Position numbers and translations under genes: made by a program. DNA of 64,000 nucleotides from assembly GCF_900105025.1 (NCBI RefSeq), contig NZ_LT629759.1, forward strand, positions 1,178,001 through 1,242,000, in the 5' to 3' direction. Within the stretch, counting starts at the first letter, position 1; each line of letters begins with the position of its first letter. Below, in pieces: positions 31,990 to 39,599 of the stretch. This DNA is from Parafannyhessea umbonata. GTDB lineage: Bacteria > Actinomycetota > Coriobacteriia > Coriobacteriales > Atopobiaceae. A model generated the notes under the pieces. The model was not told the origin of the DNA. It ran no database searches and saw only the letters and a program-made list of their open reading frames with translations.

Positions 31990-33516
<1,527 letters not shown>

Positions 33517-33664
33517 GTTGGTGGTCCCTCTCTGCCGTGCACGCGCACATGCCCCGTGTGCCGCCGCGCCGTCGCGCGTCGCCACGATTACTAGCACAGA
33601 TTAGCGCTTTGCCGCCCCGGACGCCGCGCCGCCGGCGCGTGGGTAACAAAAAAGCAGCAGTCTC

Positions 33665-35818
33665 CTAGCGCAGCTGGTCCAGAAGCGGCCCGCCTTCGCC
33701 CAGGCGCCAGTGCGTCCAGCCGTTCAGCCCCGTCTCGTGCGCGCCGACCGACCCCAGGAAGCGCTCGTAGGCGGCGGTGGGCTCGTCGAACGTCTCGCCG
33801 GTGGCGAGCATGATCCTGCCCGTGGACGTGACGGTCGCGCGTCCCGGGTACATGGGGCTCACGCTCACGAGCACGTCGTCCATCTGCACGACGCCGGAGT
33901 CCACCAGGTCCTGCCACGTGACGGTCTTCACCTGCGCCGCGCGGCGCGACGGCCTGAACGCCTCGAGCGTGGCCGCGTCCATGTGCGGAAGCGGCCACGC
34001 GCCCAGGGCGACGTCAGCGAGGGCACGTCCGCGCGCCTCTATCTGCGTGGGGCCCCACGCCTGTGCGGCGATCACGTCGCGGCAGAGCGGCGCGTCCACG
34101 GAGCGACCGTCCGCATCGCGCGCGAGGCGCCCCTGCTTCTGCGCGAGGGTGCCATCCTGCAGGTCGTACGGGTACGCCGACGGCGCGAGGTTGCCGAGCG
34201 CGTTCACGCCGCGCTCGAACGCGAGCCTTGCGTCTGGGCCCAGCGCCTGCGCCCACGCGGGGTCCGCAAGCGCGCCCACGGGCATCACGTGCTCCACGCC
34301 CCAGCCCTCCGGCAGCGCGGACGCGTCCGCGGCAGAGCCCGGCACGCCAGCCGCGGCGCAGGCGATGACCGCGTCCTCGGCGGCGTCGTCCGGGGCGGCG
34401 CCCGCCGCACCCGCGGCGAGGCGTGCGTTCAGGCGCGCCAGCAAAAACGGCGCCTGCGCGAAGCCAAAGCAGTCGCGCGTCAGCAGCGCGCGGCGGAACT
34501 CTTCGTCCGTGGGGAAGCGGCGCGGGGTGCCCTCCTCCACAAGGAAGAGCGCCACGTAGGACTCAAAGTACTTCTCGCCCGCGCTGCGCACCGCCGCGAG
34601 CTTCGCCACAAGGTGGCGCAGGAAGTGCTCCTGCGCGCTGCCCTCGCAGTCGCACACCGCGCGACGCAGCAGGTACGACTCGAGCACGCCGAGCATGTCG
34701 GCCAGCTGCCCGCGCGTGCACTCGCGCCTGCGGCAGCTGCGGAAGAGCTCCAGCACGAGCGGCCGCGCCGCGCTGCCCCCAAGGCGCGCGATGCCCGCCA
34801 GGTGGAAGGACGTCCTTCTGGCCACGGGGTCGGCGTCGTCCGCGGCGGAAAGGCCCCCGCGCACCGCGTCCACGTAGTAGCCGGCGAAGTCCTTCAGCCT
34901 GAGGCAGAGAAATCCCATGCGGTCGTTCGCGTCGTACGCGTTCGCGCTGACGTAGCGCTTGAACACCTGGTACAGGTCCGCGCCGCCCAGGCGCTCCGGC
35001 GCGTAGGCCATCTGGAAGAAGCAGCGAATGAAGTCATCGAACGCGTCCTCGTCGGCCAGCGGCGCCAGCACGTCCTCGAGCGGCTTCCAATACGTCTGGT
35101 ACGCCTGGGCCTGGCGGTCAAGCGGGTACTTCATGAGCACGAAGTTGCGGATGAGGTCCGCCGCGCTGAGGTCCTTGCCGGTGGAGTTCATGGACTCGAA
35201 TATGAGCTGCGCGTTGTCGCGCCCCTGCGCCATGGTGACGGACACGACCTCGAGCCGCCGCAGCCCCTCCCACACGGTCGCCACGTTCGCGAGCGCGTCC
35301 AGCCGCCGCTCGAAGAGCGCGAGGTTGTCCAGAATCCGCGAAGGCCCCTCCGGCGCGGGGCGCGACGGATCCTCCAGCTGGTCGATCACGGCCCTGAACG
35401 TCGCGCGGTCACCCTTGGACAGCGTGAGCTTGTAGTGGTCGTCTCCGGAGCGGAACGGGTTCGTGAGGTAGCCGCTCATCAGGATCTCCTGGCGCGAGAA
35501 GGGCAGGCGCTCCTTTCCGTGGGCGTCCGCGTAGCGCGCGAGCGCCACCAGCAGCAGCGCTATGGTCGTGATGCGCTGCTGGCCGTCGATCACGGCGAGC
35601 GAAGCGACGCCCTGCGGCGAGGCGGTGCCGTCCTGCATGGTGACGATGGAGCCCGTGAAGTGCGTCTGCTCGCGCGAGCGCCCGCACGCCAGGATGTCGT
35701 CCCACAGCTGGAGGCACTGCTCCTCTCCCCACGAGTACGGCCTCTGGTAGACCGGCACCACGTACCGGACGTTCATCTCGCTGATGAGCCCCATGACCCT
35801 GCGTACGCCTGCGTCCAT
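33665..35818 (-). CDS. GmrSD-type DUF262/DUF1524 protein with C-terminal RAMA-like domain
   Basis: This 717-residue protein has the DUF262 (ParB-like NTPase) opening VPVYQRPYSWGEEQCLQLWD (residues 21-40) and IDGQQRITT (77-85). A long helical region is followed by a DUF1524-like HNH segment (EHVMPVG near 509, then NALGNLAPSAY). The last 85 residues (VTWQDLVDSGVVQMDDVL to NGWTHWR) resemble the RAMA domain of restriction and modification enzymes. Related GmrSD/BrxU/SspE proteins are type IV restriction nucleases that attack modified phage DNA. No methylase or other defence gene adjoins, so it appears solitary. AGGAGGGGA precedes the ATG. Activity is inferred. The gene carries one 10-mer (34571-34580) and sits beside the palindrome array. 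Confidence 0.85.
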   Translation of the reverse strand: MDAGVRRVMGLISEMNVRYVVPVYQRPYSWGEEQCLQLWDDILACGRSREQTHFTGSIVTMQDGTASPQGVASLAVIDGQQRITTIALLLVALARYADAHGKERLPFSRQEILMSGYLTNPFRSGDDHYKLTLSKGDRATFRAVIDQLEDPSRPAPEGPSRILDNLALFERRLDALANVATVWEGLRRLEVVSVTMAQGRDNAQLIFESMNSTGKDLSAADLIRNFVLMKYPLDRQAQAYQTYWKPLEDVLAPLADEDAFDDFIRCFFQMAYAPERLGGADLYQVFKRYVSANAYDANDRMGFLCLRLKDFAGYYVDAVRGGLSAADDADPVARRTSFHLAGIARLGGSAARPLVLELFRSCRRRECTRGQLADMLGVLESYLLRRAVCDCEGSAQEHFLRHLVAKLAAVRSAGEKYFESYVALFLVEEGTPRRFPTDEEFRRALLTRDCFGFAQAPFLLARLNARLAAGAAGAAPDDAAEDAVIACAAAGVPGSAADASALPEGWGVEHVMPVGALADPAWAQALGPDARLAFERGVNALGNLAPSAYPYDLQDGTLAQKQGRLARDADGRSVDAPLCRDVIAAQAWGPTQIEARGRALADVALGAWPLPHMDAATLEAFRPSRRAAQVKTVTWQDLVDSGVVQMDDVLVSVSPMYPGRATVTSTGRIMLATGETFDEPTAAYERFLGSVGAHETGLNGWTHWRLGEGGPLLDQLR

Positions 35819-35900
35819 GCTGCGCTCCCCTCCTGCCGCCACGCCCGGCGACCCGGCGCGCGGTCGCGCTCTCCGGCGGCCTGCGGCGCCCCGACGGCCC

Positions 35901-36206
35901 CACTAACTGACAAAAGCGGCTTCTGTCAGCAAGTGATGCCCGACGGCCTCACAAACTGACAGGAGCGTGAGATAAGGACGCATTCTGTCAGAAAGTGGTG
36001 CCATCGCCAGCTCACTAACTGACAGGAGCATCTCCTGTCAGAAAGTGGTGCGCCACACAATCTCACTAACTGACAGAAGCACCTCCTGTCAGTTAGTGAT
36101 ACCGCGGCGGCCTCACAAACTGACAAAAATAGCTCCCGTCAGATAGTGGTACCACTATCTGACGGGAGCGGGCAATTCCAGGGTGCGGGGCACCACAATC
36201 TGACAG
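35901..36206. repeat. Array of iterated palindromes with CACTAACTGACAG core
   Basis: Six inward-facing or overlapping units fill this intergenic stretch; CTGAC half-sites begin at 35907, 35956, 36019, 36070, 36120, 36159 and 36200 (39-63 bp apart). A typical unit reads CACTAACTGACAGGAG, a few bases, CTCCTGTCAG, two bases, AGTG. At 36063-36097 the outer arms CACTAACTGACAG/CTGTCAGTTAGTG are perfectly paired. Units are separated by short spacers of unrelated sequence. The right end contains a perfect 38-bp palindrome (36132-36169). No T-tracts follow, so these are not terminators. It lies between the divergent upstream side of the GmrSD-type gene and the end of the DMT exporter. Confidence 0.85.
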
Positions 36207-36210
36207 CTTC

Positions 36211-36258
36211 CACGCATCGCCGGCGTCACGCATCGCCGGCGCCACGCATCGCCGGCGT
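36211..36258. repeat. Three tandem copies of a 16-bp repeat
   Basis: CACGCATCGCCGGCGT is repeated head to tail three times (36211, 36227, 36243), with one T-to-C change at the end of copy 2. It adjoins the palindrome array and lies just past the stop of the exporter gene at 36276. Confidence 0.9.
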
Positions 36259-36275
36259 CACACGAACGCGCCACG

Positions 36276-37274
36276 CTACCCCTGTGCGCGCTTCGCATGG
36301 ACGCGCGCCGTCGCAAGGCCGCGCGCAAGGCCGCCGTGCGTGGACGCAGAGAACGCGTGCGCGTCAGCCGCGCCTTCCGCAGCGTCGGCCTTGCCGTCCG
36401 CAAGCGAGCTCAGCAGCACGGCCGCGAGGATGAGCGCGCAGCCCAGGTAGCACTGGGGCGCCATGACCTCTCCCAGGAAGACGAACGACAGCACGGCGGA
36501 GGACACGGACTCGAGCGAGAAGAGCAGCCCCGCGTGGGTGGCGGTGGTGCGGCTCTGCGCCACCGGCTGCATCGCGAAGCCAAACGCGCTGCACACGAGG
36601 GCGAGCCCGAGCACGGCGCCCCACTCCGCGGGCGACTGCGGAAGCACCGGCCCCTCGAACGCGAGGTTGAACGCCGCGCCGAACACGGCTGCGAAACCCA
36701 GCTGGCAGATGCCCAGCAGCAGGGCGTCGTCGGAGTGCGAGAACGTGTCCGTCGCCACGATCTGCAGCGCATACACGGCAGAGCCCGCCAGGCACAGCCC
36801 TGCGCCGCCGCCAAGCGACACCGGCCCGCTCAGCGTGAGCAGCGCGAGCCCCGCAACGCAGATCCCGATGCCCGCGAGCGTGGCGCGGCTGGGCGCCCTG
36901 TGCGTGGCCACCGCGACGATCAACGGCACGAAGATGACCTTCGCGCTGGTAAGGAAGCCGGCGGTCGAGGCAGGCGTCGTCTTCAAGCCGTACATCAGAA
37001 GCCCGAAGAACACGCACAGCAGAAAGCCGAGCACGGCACCGCGCGCCACGACAGAGGCCGTCAGCTCGCGAAGCCTCTTGCGGAAGATGATCGCGACCGC
37101 GACGAAGGCGATGCCAAAGCGCAGCGCAACCATGCCAAACGGCGGGATGGAAGAGAGACCCACCTGCATCATGAGGTAGGAGCTGCCCCACGCGCACGCG
37201 ATGGCCGCAATCATGAGGTCCGCCTGCCTCTGCGTCCAACCTGCGCCGATGCCTGCGCCGCTCGCGTTGCCCAT
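36276..37274 (-). CDS. DMT-superfamily exporter (EamA domains)
   Basis: This ~332-residue membrane protein has ten hydrophobic spans in two EamA halves (ADLMIAAIACAWGSSYLMMQ at the start; GLALVCSAFGFAMQPVAQSRTT in the second). The C-terminal ~40 residues are Ala-rich and hydrophilic. The start at 37274 is favoured by GGAG at 6 bases; ATGs at 37286 and 37346 lack a good site. It is divergent from a LysR regulator, a layout that usually means the regulator controls the exporter. Substrate is unknown. Confidence 0.83.
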   Translation of the reverse strand: MGNASGAGIGAGWTQRQADLMIAAIACAWGSSYLMMQVGLSSIPPFGMVALRFGIAFVAVAIIFRKRLRELTASVVARGAVLGFLLCVFFGLLMYGLKTTPASTAGFLTSAKVIFVPLIVAVATHRAPSRATLAGIGICVAGLALLTLSGPVSLGGGAGLCLAGSAVYALQIVATDTFSHSDDALLLGICQLGFAAVFGAAFNLAFEGPVLPQSPAEWGAVLGLALVCSAFGFAMQPVAQSRTTATHAGLLFSLESVSSAVLSFVFLGEVMAPQCYLGCALILAAVLLSSLADGKADAAEGAADAHAFSASTHGGLARGLATARVHAKRAQG

Positions 37275-37361
37275 GCCGCACTCCATTTCCGCGTAAGTGT
37301 TCGCGTGATAATTTTCGCCTTCCTTTTTTACGCGCCTCTCAGCCATTTGTTAACTTCATCT

Positions 37362-37390
37362 TTGTACTTGTATGCAGTACAATCTGTACT
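37362..37390 (+). promoter_or_regulatory. Predicted promoter/operator for the LysR gene
   Basis: TTGTAC (37362-37367) and TGTACT (37385-37390) are 17 bases apart and about 90 bases before the chosen start. GTAC occurs three times between 37364 and 37389, giving overlapping inverted repeats suitable for LysR binding. A one-mismatch copy of the 10-mer (37413-37422) lies in the leader. Confidence 0.4.
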
Positions 37391-37479
37391 GGATGCACAG
37401 CGGGCGTGCCCCGGGCGAGAAAAGCATGCGCCCTCGCGCGGAGCATGCCCATCTATCAGGCATAGCATCGGAGGCACCC

Positions 37480-38370
37480 ATGGCCGCAGGCATGGACCGC
37501 TACCAGATATTCCTGAGGGTCGTCGAGCTCGGCAACATCACACGCGCGGCGGAGTCCCTGAGCTACACGCAGTCCGGCGTGAGCCACGCCGTCCGCGCGC
37601 TGGAGCAGGAGTGCGGCGTCGCTCTGCTCACGCGCGGCAAGGCCGGCGTCTCCCTCACGGAGAACGGCCGTCTGCTGCTGCCGCGCATCCAGGCGCTCGT
37701 CAACCAGCAACGCGCGCTCGAGCAGGCCATACACGAGGTGAACCACGTCGTCGCCGGCACGCTGCGCATCGGCACGTTCACGTCCGTCTCCACGCAGTGG
37801 CTGCCCGGCATGATCGAGCGCTTCCAAAAGAGCTACCCCCAGGTGGAGTTCCAGATCTACGCCGGCGGCTACGAAGACATCGCGGAGCGCATTCAGGAGG
37901 GCCGCGCGGACCTGGGCTTCCTCACGTCCGTCGTGAAGAGCCCCCAGCTGAGCTTCCACGCGCTGCGCCGCGACCAGATGATGGCCATCCTCCCGCGCGA
38001 CCACCCGCTCGCCGCGCGCCAGCGCGTGAGCGTGGGCCAGGTGGCCCGCGAGGAGCTCGTCATGCCCCTGCGCGGGTCTGAGCAGGACATCCGCGCGGCG
38101 CTCGCGGATTCGCCGAGCCCGCTGAACGTGCGCTACGCCCTGAACGACGACTTCTCCGCCCTCGCCATGGTTGAGCACGGCTTCGGCATCTCGGTCATGC
38201 CAGAGCTCATCCTTAGGAACTCCGCCTTCGACGTGGAGGTCAGGCCCTTCTCGCCCGCGCGATGGCGCACCATCGGCATCGCCACCCTGGACCCGGCGGG
38301 CCTCACGGCGGTTGCGCGCACGTTCGTGTCGTTCCTGACGGACCCGGACAACGCGGACCTCATGCAGTAG
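37480..38370 (+). CDS. LysR-family transcriptional regulator
   Basis: This 296-residue protein has an N-terminal winged helix (MDRYQIFLRVVELGNITRAA, then YTQSGVSHAVRALEQECGVALLTR) and a periplasmic-binding-like effector domain from about residue 95 (GTLRIGTFTSVSTQWLPGMI). The start at 37480 follows GGAGG at 5 bases; longer in-frame starts overlap the promoter. It is divergent from the DMT exporter gene and probably regulates it. A 13-bp tandem duplication spans its stop codon (38364-38389). Confidence 0.9.
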   Translation: MAAGMDRYQIFLRVVELGNITRAAESLSYTQSGVSHAVRALEQECGVALLTRGKAGVSLTENGRLLLPRIQALVNQQRALEQAIHEVNHVVAGTLRIGTFTSVSTQWLPGMIERFQKSYPQVEFQIYAGGYEDIAERIQEGRADLGFLTSVVKSPQLSFHALRRDQMMAILPRDHPLAARQRVSVGQVAREELVMPLRGSEQDIRAALADSPSPLNVRYALNDDFSALAMVEHGFGISVMPELILRNSAFDVEVRPFSPARWRTIGIATLDPAGLTAVARTFVSFLTDPDNADLMQ

Positions 38371-38426
38371 ACGCGGGCAGTAGACGCGGGCGAGAAGAGC
38401 GCGGGCCCGCCGCGGTGGCGCGCGAC

Positions 38427-39599
38427 CTATCCGCGGGCGACCTCGAACGTGACGCCGTCCAGGTTCTTCACGTGCACGCGTATGAGCGCGCGCAGGCGCG
38501 ACCTCTGGGTGGCGTCGAGCGGCGCGCTCGTCCTCACCGTGGCGACCACGCGGCGCCTGGCCGTCGCGGACCCGGCCTCGCCCACGTACTCCGTCCCCAC
38601 GCGGTATTCCAGAAGCGACGGACACACGGCGGAAAGCTCGCGCGTCGTCAGGCCAACCTGGTACTCGTCCACGTTCTGCGCGCCCGCGGCGCCGGGGCCC
38701 GTCGCCTGGCGCACCATGTCGGCCGTCGCGAGCACGCACGGGATCATGAACACGACCGTCGCCACAAGGATGAAGCGCTTCATGCGGCGCGAGAGCCGCT
38801 CCTCCGCGGCCTCCTCCTCCAGGGTGACCACGCCGTCCGGGCCCACCTCGCGGTGCAGGGGCACGCGCAGGATGAGAAGGACGATCTCTGCCGCCAGCGC
38901 TATGAACACCACGTTCAGGGCGAACTCGTAGAACGCGCTCGCGAAGCGTGCCAGGTCGCGCACGGCGATGCCGTAGCCCGCGGCGCACAGCGGCGGCATG
39001 AGGGCCGTGGCCACGGCGACGCCCGCGATGAGGGTGGACGGCTCCTGCCTGCGCGAGTTGCCCAGCCCGCCCGCGAAGCCGCCCGCAAGCGCCACCAGGA
39101 TGTCCCACACCGTGGGGTTGGAGTTAGCGAGCAGCTCGTTCGTGACGCCGCTCAGGGGCGAGAGCACGAAGTACAGGGTGGACGTGGCAAGGCAGATGCA
39201 GACCTGCACAAGGAGGCCCACGAGCGCGTCGCGCAACAGGCGCACGTCCGCCGTTGCCACGGAGTACGAGATGGCGAGCACGGAGCCCATGAGCGGGCAG
39301 ATGAGCATGGCGCCCACGATGCACTCCGTCGAGTCCGTGTTCAGGCCGATGGAAGCTATGAGCATCGCCACGATGAGGATGCAGAGGTGCGTGCCGCTCA
39401 GCTTGGAGCCGTTCACGAAGCGCCGGCGGATGTCCTGGTAGCTGGCGCGTCCCGCCCGCAGGTTGAACACGCTGGACAGCGCCCGCGCAAGCGGGTTCGC
39501 CTCCCGCGCGGGGCGCCGGCGCGCGACGGAACCGCCCGCCCGCGGCGTATGTGCGGCGACCGGTTTTGCCGCCGGCCCTCCCGACTCGACCTCGCCCAT
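38427..39599 (-). CDS. DUF389 membrane protein
   Basis: This 390-residue protein has a short cytoplasmic N-terminus, then FVNGSKLSGTHLCILIVAML and STECIVGAMLICPLMGSVLA, the conserved DUF389 opening. About six spans follow, including GGFAGGLGNSRRQEPSTLIAGVAVATALMPP. The C-terminal part after residue 265 is a soluble domain anchored by one more span. Family function is unknown. The start is the ATG at 39599 with modest ribosome-site quality. Confidence 0.85.
   Translation of the reverse strand: MGEVESGGPAAKPVAAHTPRAGGSVARRRPAREANPLARALSSVFNLRAGRASYQDIRRRFVNGSKLSGTHLCILIVAMLIASIGLNTDSTECIVGAMLICPLMGSVLAISYSVATADVRLLRDALVGLLVQVCICLATSTLYFVLSPLSGVTNELLANSNPTVWDILVALAGGFAGGLGNSRRQEPSTLIAGVAVATALMPPLCAAGYGIAVRDLARFASAFYEFALNVVFIALAAEIVLLILRVPLHREVGPDGVVTLEEEAAEERLSRRMKRFILVATVVFMIPCVLATADMVRQATGPGAAGAQNVDEYQVGLTTRELSAVCPSLLEYRVGTEYVGEAGSATARRRVVATVRTSAPLDATQRSRLRALIRVHVKNLDGVTFEVARG

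Follow-up and report, generated by a model that had tools for sequence, protein, structure and literature searches.

Helically phased palindrome arrays in Parafannyhessea umbonata and a Vsr-fold protein as their possible partner

In the stretch of 64,000 nucleotides of Parafannyhessea umbonata DNA analysed here (the window), a row of palindromes separates a gene with GmrSD_N and RAMA domains from a gene for an EamA-family transporter. The question raised by this locus is what such a row is for and what would recognize it. From the sequence alone it had been proposed to be an operator array of the neighbouring gene, a REP/BIME cluster tied to a RAYT transposase elsewhere, or a source of small RNA hairpins.

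The array in the window and its eight sister arrays

The array at positions 35901-36206 was found to be real, with units or half-units beginning at 35901, 35950, 36013, 36064, 36114, 36153 and 36194, and the predicted recurrence every 39-63 bp was borne out. Four of the units are 35 bp long and have a 13-9-13 form, and at 36153 and 36194 a half-site stands alone. Allowing one mismatch at most, the window contains 13 copies of the half-site CACNANCTGACA, of which 12 are inside the array; shuffled versions had 2.99 on average and never more than 7. Similarly, the folding of the array far exceeded that of shuffles on both strands (z -11.2 and -12.5), and an Rfam search of window positions 33000-39000 gave no match to it. 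The features of the locus are the following, in window positions.

33665..35818, minus strand: gene with GmrSD_N and RAMA domains, 82 bp past the other end of the array
35901..35935, no strand: palindromic unit 1, 13-9-13, 21 of 22 consensus positions
35950..35997, no strand: unit 2, two 13-bp half-sites with a 22-bp loop
36013..36047, no strand: unit 3, 22 of 22 consensus positions
36064..36098, no strand: unit 4, 22 of 22 consensus positions, 13-bp arms fully paired
36114..36148, no strand: unit 5, 3 mismatches
36132..36169, minus strand: terminator-like hairpin formed by the right half of unit 5 together with its inverted copy, then TATTTTT
36194..36206, no strand: decayed lone half-site, closest to the EamA gene
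36276..37286, minus strand: gene for an EamA-family transporter, with 69 bp between its stop codon and the array

The unit with fully paired 13-bp arms that had been noticed in the sequence is thus the one at 36064, and the neighbour described as type IV restriction-like is the gene with the GmrSD_N and RAMA domains. The original prediction that the array is no row of terminators stood for most units, which lack a T-run, but had to give way at the hairpin at 36132-36169 (minus strand), which lies behind the EamA gene. A plain row of terminators was rejected, as a T-run follows some gene-proximal units and is missing at most others.

The source genome (Parafannyhessea, Atopobiaceae, Coriobacteriales) is a single contig of 2,353,093 bases, and the proposed search for CTGACAG-type palindromes turned up eight sister arrays in it. 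In the repeat unit, 9 bp separate two 13-bp arms, CACTNNCTGACAG-N9-CTGTCAGNNAGTG, and a search with CTGTCAGNNAGTG gave 44 matches against none for the reversed pattern. At up to three mismatches there are 38 units in the source genome and 37 in P. umbonata 105184, compared to none in the reversed-pattern control, and in each genome nine arrays hold all of them. All nine arrays of the source genome lie outside predicted genes, 23-92 bp behind the 3' end of a gene or tRNA; the genes were predicted with a home-made codon score, for which six genes of this genome served as training set and which missed the 359-aa gene described below. Two arrays are located between convergent genes and seven between genes of the same direction (or a tRNA and a gene), and at one of the seven (L038) the array and the tRNA lie inside a divergent pair of protein genes.

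The neighbours have no common theme. They comprise purine-synthesis-like (with a ZTP riboswitch), aldo/keto reductase, lactate/malate dehydrogenase, DEAD-box-like, QueD-like, hisS, phosphorylase-superfamily, response-regulator-like, P-type-ATPase-like, RNase-PH-like, EamA and GmrSD-like genes, of which hisS and those termed '-like' are what we take them to be from their sequences. Rfam searches at the eight sister loci identified four tRNAs and one ZTP riboswitch, none of them within an array. Near the hisS array of the source genome we additionally observed a gene pair (L035 677-2888), presumably of the IS21-type istA/istB kind, that is unmatched in the corresponding locus of P. umbonata 105184.

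Each of the nine arrays has an array at the orthologous site of P. umbonata 105184, where the flanking orthologues are 65-100% identical (most above 82%). With all nine positions common to both genomes, no recent movement of the arrays was seen here. The numbers of units in three of the pairs are 5 and 4, 7 and 6, and 4 and 5, and two pairs have 2 and 2 units. In the third Parafannyhessea species (G002), and also in G007, no unit was found at up to three mismatches. All ten gene-end pieces were matched in G002, and the stretches read at these orthologous gene ends contained no unit; the QueD-side stretch is interrupted by a contig end 79 bp from the match, the remainder lying on a different contig. 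The gap measures 85 bp in G002 versus 457 bp in the source genome between the EamA and GmrSD genes, 271 versus 431 bp at the ATPase site, and 142 versus 1958 bp at the reductase site.

None of 57 further genomes from the family and order had an exact CTGACAG-N9-CTGTCAG, and six orthologous loci in G022 and G028 held no unit scoring 15 or more of 22. A single 15/22 match was seen at one hisS locus (L090) out of 28 from the family. A scan of genome contigs gave 12 stretches, seven from P. umbonata 105184 and five solitary ones in other genera, while an exact scan of viral contigs and a blastn search of plasmid and phage records with the array as query gave nothing. One solitary complete unit (22/22) was seen at L068 7764-7798 in Aneurinibacillus aneurinilyticus, and we take it to be chance or a lone terminator. 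No description of such repeats in Coriobacteria was found in the literature searched.

Helical phasing and hairpin signals

Counted between neighbouring units with at least 16 of 22 consensus positions, 57 of 58 spacings were 39-41, 49-52, 61, 70-71 or 81 bp, which are whole helical turns. The remaining spacing (112 bp) runs across unit 2 of the window, which is loose; three spacings that touch 15/22 units (62, 50 and 80 bp) were left out of the 58 and are phase-compatible too. The best period was 10.16 bp, with an R of 0.954, and at 11 bp, the pitch of an RNA helix, R was 0.693. Orthologous spacings and spacers are interdependent (in two arrays the spacers are identical at 40/46 and 45/46 positions), and because such pairs are not independent we also give figures for the source genome on its own, where the 30 spacings gave an R of 0.945 and the best of 2000 random sets reached 0.562.

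In the 46-bp spacers, which separate units at 81-bp spacing, A/T recurs every 10 bp, with peaks near positions 8, 19, 28 and 39. The amplitude of this 10-bp signal was reached by none of 2000 permutations and none of 2000 rotations, and the same was found for the source genome alone (8 spacers). By eye, the 46-bp spacers at different loci look unrelated, which argues that the phase was not copied along with them. In 36 outer flanks of the arrays the amplitude was 0.030 (reached by 7 of 1000 permutations), one fifth of the 0.150 in the spacers, indicating that the bend signal is mainly in the DNA between two palindromes. Such a signal fits a small protein-closed loop better than free wrapped arms, and the helical phasing together with the phased A/T points to bent double-stranded DNA held by protein.

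We also observed co-variation of the two arms. At arm positions 4, 5 and 6 the observed co-variation was reached by 1, 0 and 8 of 2000 within-array shuffles, and position 8 showed none. Between the source genome and P. umbonata 105184, both arms had changed together in one hisS-side unit and in one ATPase-side unit. Co-variation of this kind can reflect selection for a hairpin or the correction of one arm by the other, as hairpin-templated correction of quasi-palindromes would likewise yield it. At least five T in the seven bases after the gene-proximal unit were found at four loci of the source genome (L033, L034, L035 and L036) and three of P. umbonata 105184 (L056, L057 and L059), and internal units are mostly without a T-run. 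Given the gene-proximal T-runs and the terminator-like hairpin of the window, some arrays probably also end transcripts.

A Vsr-fold gene beside one array and the repeat modules of its relatives

Within the extra DNA of the reductase site lies a gene for a 359-aa protein (G000:C1:137986-139065), 86 bp from the array. The array lies behind this gene, which in P. umbonata has it on one side only. The gene is missing from the reductase site in G002; the protein is 80% identical in P. umbonata 105184 and its best relative in G002 is 30% identical. As a side observation, the array adjoining this gene (L032 5100-5549) has a G+C content of about 0.49, compared to 0.55-0.65 on either side.

The 359-aa protein had no match in NCBIfam, PADLOC and Pfam. 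Among 21 family members, weak matches were found to MTES_1575 in 12 and to DUF559 in 6. In a profile search of PDB sequences (E up to 10) the sole match was 3r3p, the homing endonuclease I-Bth0305I (E 4.8e-6). A structure model of the protein had a mean pLDDT of 86.1; with this model Foldseek gave no PDB match at E of 0.001 or below, 3r3p being third (E 0.38, probability 0.93). A second structure comparison placed 3r3p on top (Z 10.1, rmsd 2.8 over 95 residues), with two mitoribosome chains at Z 8.6 and 8.4, Vsr at 8.4 and TnsA at 6.2. As modelled, the C-terminal domain has a nuclease fold of the Vsr/I-Bth0305I type. The N-terminal half gave a weak match to AbiEi (Z 6.1, model residues 1-211 against chain residues 65-195) and is possibly AbiEi-like. 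Invariant in the alignment of 21 sequences are P117, L136, G142, S216, E219, G233, N243, D264, E275 and H282. Nuclease activity of the family, predicted from the fold and the invariant D264, E275 and H282, is uncertain, because the second residue after E275 varies among the family proteins.

Two further family members are present in the source genome (C1:496275-497255 and 2142105-2142866). The first (L147) had no flanking module in the survey described below, and neither had the second paralogue of P. umbonata 105184. Homologues occur in 29 of the 40 genomes searched, including the two carriers of the 359-aa gene, and often in several copies; among 246 sampled genomes from the phylum, at least 52 had a match at 1e-10. 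Among the matches listed, the strong near-full-length ones were in the own order, and those outside it mostly covered the C-terminal half only. A search with the Y1_Tnp profile (PF01797) found nothing in the three genomes of the genus; the same profile scored in 5 of 14 control genomes.

In the surroundings of homologues in other genera we found repeat modules that are peculiar to each gene. The same module was present on both flanks (at least 44 bits) at 14 of 20 fetched family loci and absent in this form at the other 6. These 20 loci were hand-picked from the homologue matches and not random, and three of them (L151, L153 and L161) were known to have palindromes before the survey. Together with the 359-aa gene in the source genome and in P. 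umbonata 105184, the flanks of which share no module, the survey comprised 22 loci, 14 of them positive. As a control, hisS loci gave 0 of 27 usable ones at the same threshold, the first count having been 1 of 28 before L100 was excluded because of its short contig with overlapping windows; controls L084 and L089 were shorter than the assumed layout.

Eleven modules used as queries in nine genomes gave at least 84, 36, 28, 27, 25, 12, 8, 6 and 3 matches, counts that include both strands of a palindrome as well as the gene-flanking copies. In three genomes (G006, G051 and G014) most matches listed are gene-flanking copies. From a selection of 40 regions among the module matches listed, in six genomes, 43 module copies were placed, none of them mainly coding: the neighbouring genes were convergent for 15 copies, same-direction for 24 and divergent for 3, and 1 copy was at a contig edge. 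The sequence at L205 1721-2113, next to a copy of the L155 module, matches the family gene of L155, which is in the same genome, with 95% identity across 131 codons; this suggests that gene and module were copied together. This pair is perhaps a duplicated or truncated gene-module pair. The copy at L168 adjoins a 26-residue match that we took as the module overlapping the query reading frame.

When aligned, the modules show inverted half-sites with a mostly constant separation and a variable intervening sequence. The separations are 102-104 bp in G039 (and once 45 bp), 102-103 bp (once 114) and 82 bp (some of 123-134) in the two G007 families, and 32 and 93 bp in G013, and in G008 there are 21-bp steps. 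None of these five other module families showed the 10-bp A/T period, apart from a marginal signal in G039, with 23 of 1000 within 9.8-10.8 bp and 100 of 1000 over all periods.

Two minor features of the modules were also seen. The motif GCAGGT, or its reverse, occurs in 24 of the 43 module copies versus a shuffled expectation of 0.06 each. It is often near the module centre and is found across families with different half-sites (L149, L150, L155, L157, L160, L166 and others), in family G007a partly overlapping the half-site, and it is absent from the P. umbonata arrays. It may be a site for a host factor common to the families. About six tandem 20-bp repeats of the GTCAGGTTTGGCCGGCTGCG type are present at L150 4872-4991, next to the upstream module of the G007 gene.

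Readings of the arrays

On balance, we consider it probable that the arrays are a REP-like dispersed family of protein-binding palindromes in double-stranded DNA, with the Vsr-fold 359-aa protein as the likeliest binder. Each 35-bp palindrome would probably be bound by a dimer. The whole-turn spacing of the sites would allow adjacent complexes to touch, with the intervening DNA bent into a tight loop, aided by the phased A/T where the sites are 81 bp apart. The likeliest binder would be the product of G000:C1:137986-139065, given how often its relatives lie between repeats of their own that are also scattered in their genomes. Gene and repeats would form a cognate pair, as RAYT and REP do, and they look cognate because the relatives have their own modules on both sides and scattered in the genome. 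The arrays would have settled just behind gene ends, the gene-proximal palindrome sometimes doubling as an intrinsic terminator. We infer this binding, the looping and the spread by the 359-aa protein; the repeat family itself, its phasing, positions and conservation, and the association with the Vsr-like gene family were observed directly. For P. umbonata, the proposed link to the gene comes from one adjacency and the joint absence in G002, and the general link would come from the other genera. The arm co-variation at positions 4-6 speaks against this reading, as it is not required of a site that works purely as duplex DNA.

The suggestion of a REP/BIME cluster held in part, in that the arrays are dispersed, extragenic, palindromic and clustered; the RAYT or Y1 gene that should go with it was not found in the three genomes. 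The arrays resemble REPs in their size, in clustering behind genes and in being lineage-specific, and the system may resemble REP and RAYT (TnpA-REP) in a putative cognate gene family with repeats of its own scattered over the genome: such repeats lie on both sides of the gene at 14 of 20 related loci, and in P. umbonata the array is on one side only. In contrast to REP and RAYT, no Y1/HUH gene was found in the three genomes and the associated protein has a Vsr-type fold. There are nine clusters only, and the units are helix-locked with bent-DNA signals between them. REPs usually have more than 100 copies per genome, according to an excerpt of PMC2817692, whereas the arrays hold 38 and 37 units per genome. 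Most REPs carry a GTAG or CGTC tag at one end, as stated in part of PMC3733652; such a tag is lacking in the arrays, where the 8 bp outside the arms contain GTAG/CTAC at 1 of 75 units and CGTC/GACG at 4 of 75.

Two further systems offer precedents. I-Bth0305I, an EDxHD nuclease (PDB 3r3p), and Vsr share the fold of the C-terminal domain of the 359-aa protein (Z 10.1 and 8.4), although the family of the latter is paired with dispersed repeat modules. In the portion of a review that bears on it (PMC3943268), I-Bth0305I is described as dimerizing on a target of nearly 60 bp. The antitoxins AbiEi and Rv2827c bind operators of tandem inverted repeats, a possible parallel to the arrays, and the N-terminal half of the 359-aa protein gave the weak fold match to AbiEi (Z 6.1); AbiEi is described, in an excerpt of PMC7319586, as binding inverted repeats cooperatively and bending promoter DNA. 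However, the match is to chain residues 65-195, taken to exclude the winged helix, and the P. umbonata repeats lie behind genes and not at promoters. By analogy, a protein able to recognize long palindromes and to bend DNA would be in line with the AbiEi and I-Bth0305I precedents.

The protein-bound reading suggests that repeat DNA and a nuclease-like protein are paired here in a way not previously described. Dispersed palindromes with a dedicated gene are already known from RAYT and REP; if the partner is a Vsr-fold protein, this type of organisation arose a second time with a different chemistry. The strict phasing and the bent spacers predict looped, wrapped DNA at fixed places of the chromosome, and the many paralogues provide matched sets of protein and DNA target for testing. 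More tentatively, and as a possibility we would not yet lean on, the Coriobacteriales may have an expanded Vsr-fold family with many paralogues that own private, helically organized palindrome modules, borne on the flanks of the gene and sown behind other genes along the chromosome, which would form sequence-addressed looped nucleoprotein nodes and spread by a double-strand nuclease, not by a single-strand HUH enzyme as in RAYTs.

An alternative that we regard as unlikely is that the arrays are general sites of chromosome proteins (DNA gyrase, HU/IHF-like or other nucleoid proteins), as the BIMEs of E. coli are, and that the Vsr-like gene is coincidental. The location at gene 3' ends and the helical phasing agree with it. 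The 35-bp unit with its 46-bp periodic spacer also resembles the gyrase motif and BIME-2 sites of E. coli, in which, according to an excerpt of PMC6379681, a 36-bp centre lies beside 47-bp arms of G+C-periodic DNA. However, gyrase arms should flank every site, whereas the strong period of the arrays is found only between palindromes; a free gyrase site was rejected on this ground, the outer flanks having no arms of comparable strength (0.030 versus 0.150). The strict 13-bp half-sites are far more specific than the degenerate gyrase motif. Moreover, the arrays occur in two of three genus genomes and are absent from 57 others, and general chromosome proteins leave the association with family genes in other genera unexplained.

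Improbable too, in our judgement, is that the arrays act as RNA, as tandem 3'-end hairpins that terminate transcription or protect transcripts. The strong folding, the arm co-variation at positions 4-6, the paired arm changes between species (one unit in each of two arrays), and the T-runs after gene-proximal units at seven loci together with the terminator-like hairpin of the window all favour it. Hairpins, however, have no need of a spacing that obeys the turns of B-DNA better than an 11-bp pitch, and the A/T phasing sits within the spacers. Position 8 does not co-vary, most internal units lack a T-run, none of the nine arrays has an Rfam match, and hairpin-templated correction could equally give the co-variation.

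Rather doubtful is the idea of selfish miniature elements that have lost their transposase, with the phasing as a relic of ancestral spacing. Their dispersed, extragenic and lineage-limited occurrence and the short gaps in the third species at the three measured sites would be expected of such elements. Nine positions are nevertheless common to two species, and the number and order of units differ yet remain in phase, which suggests a maintained function.

The 13-9-13 layout recalls loxP. A tyrosine-recombinase site was rejected: integrase-family matches are present in all three genus genomes (4, 7 and 5), so that integrases do not track the arrays at the family level, and a distance of about 16 bp between sites would be of little use in recombination. 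One special integrase behind the arrays is still conceivable.

For the window itself, it is very improbable that the array is an operator of the GmrSD-like gene at 33665-35818, as had been proposed from its position 82 bp upstream, because the eight sister arrays adjoin unrelated genes and G002 keeps the gene pair with no array; the gene with GmrSD_N and RAMA domains is a neighbour of the array, not its partner. Nor is the array a local accident, given an array at the orthologous site of P. umbonata 105184 and the eight sisters, even though the G002 site has none. It is not a CRISPR either, in agreement with the original prediction: there is no constant repeat and no constant spacer length, the spacers between the variable palindromes being 4 to 46 bp long (one of 77). 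Between the array and the EamA gene, at window positions 36210-36261, CCACGCATCGCCGGCGTCAC is present three times at 16-bp steps.
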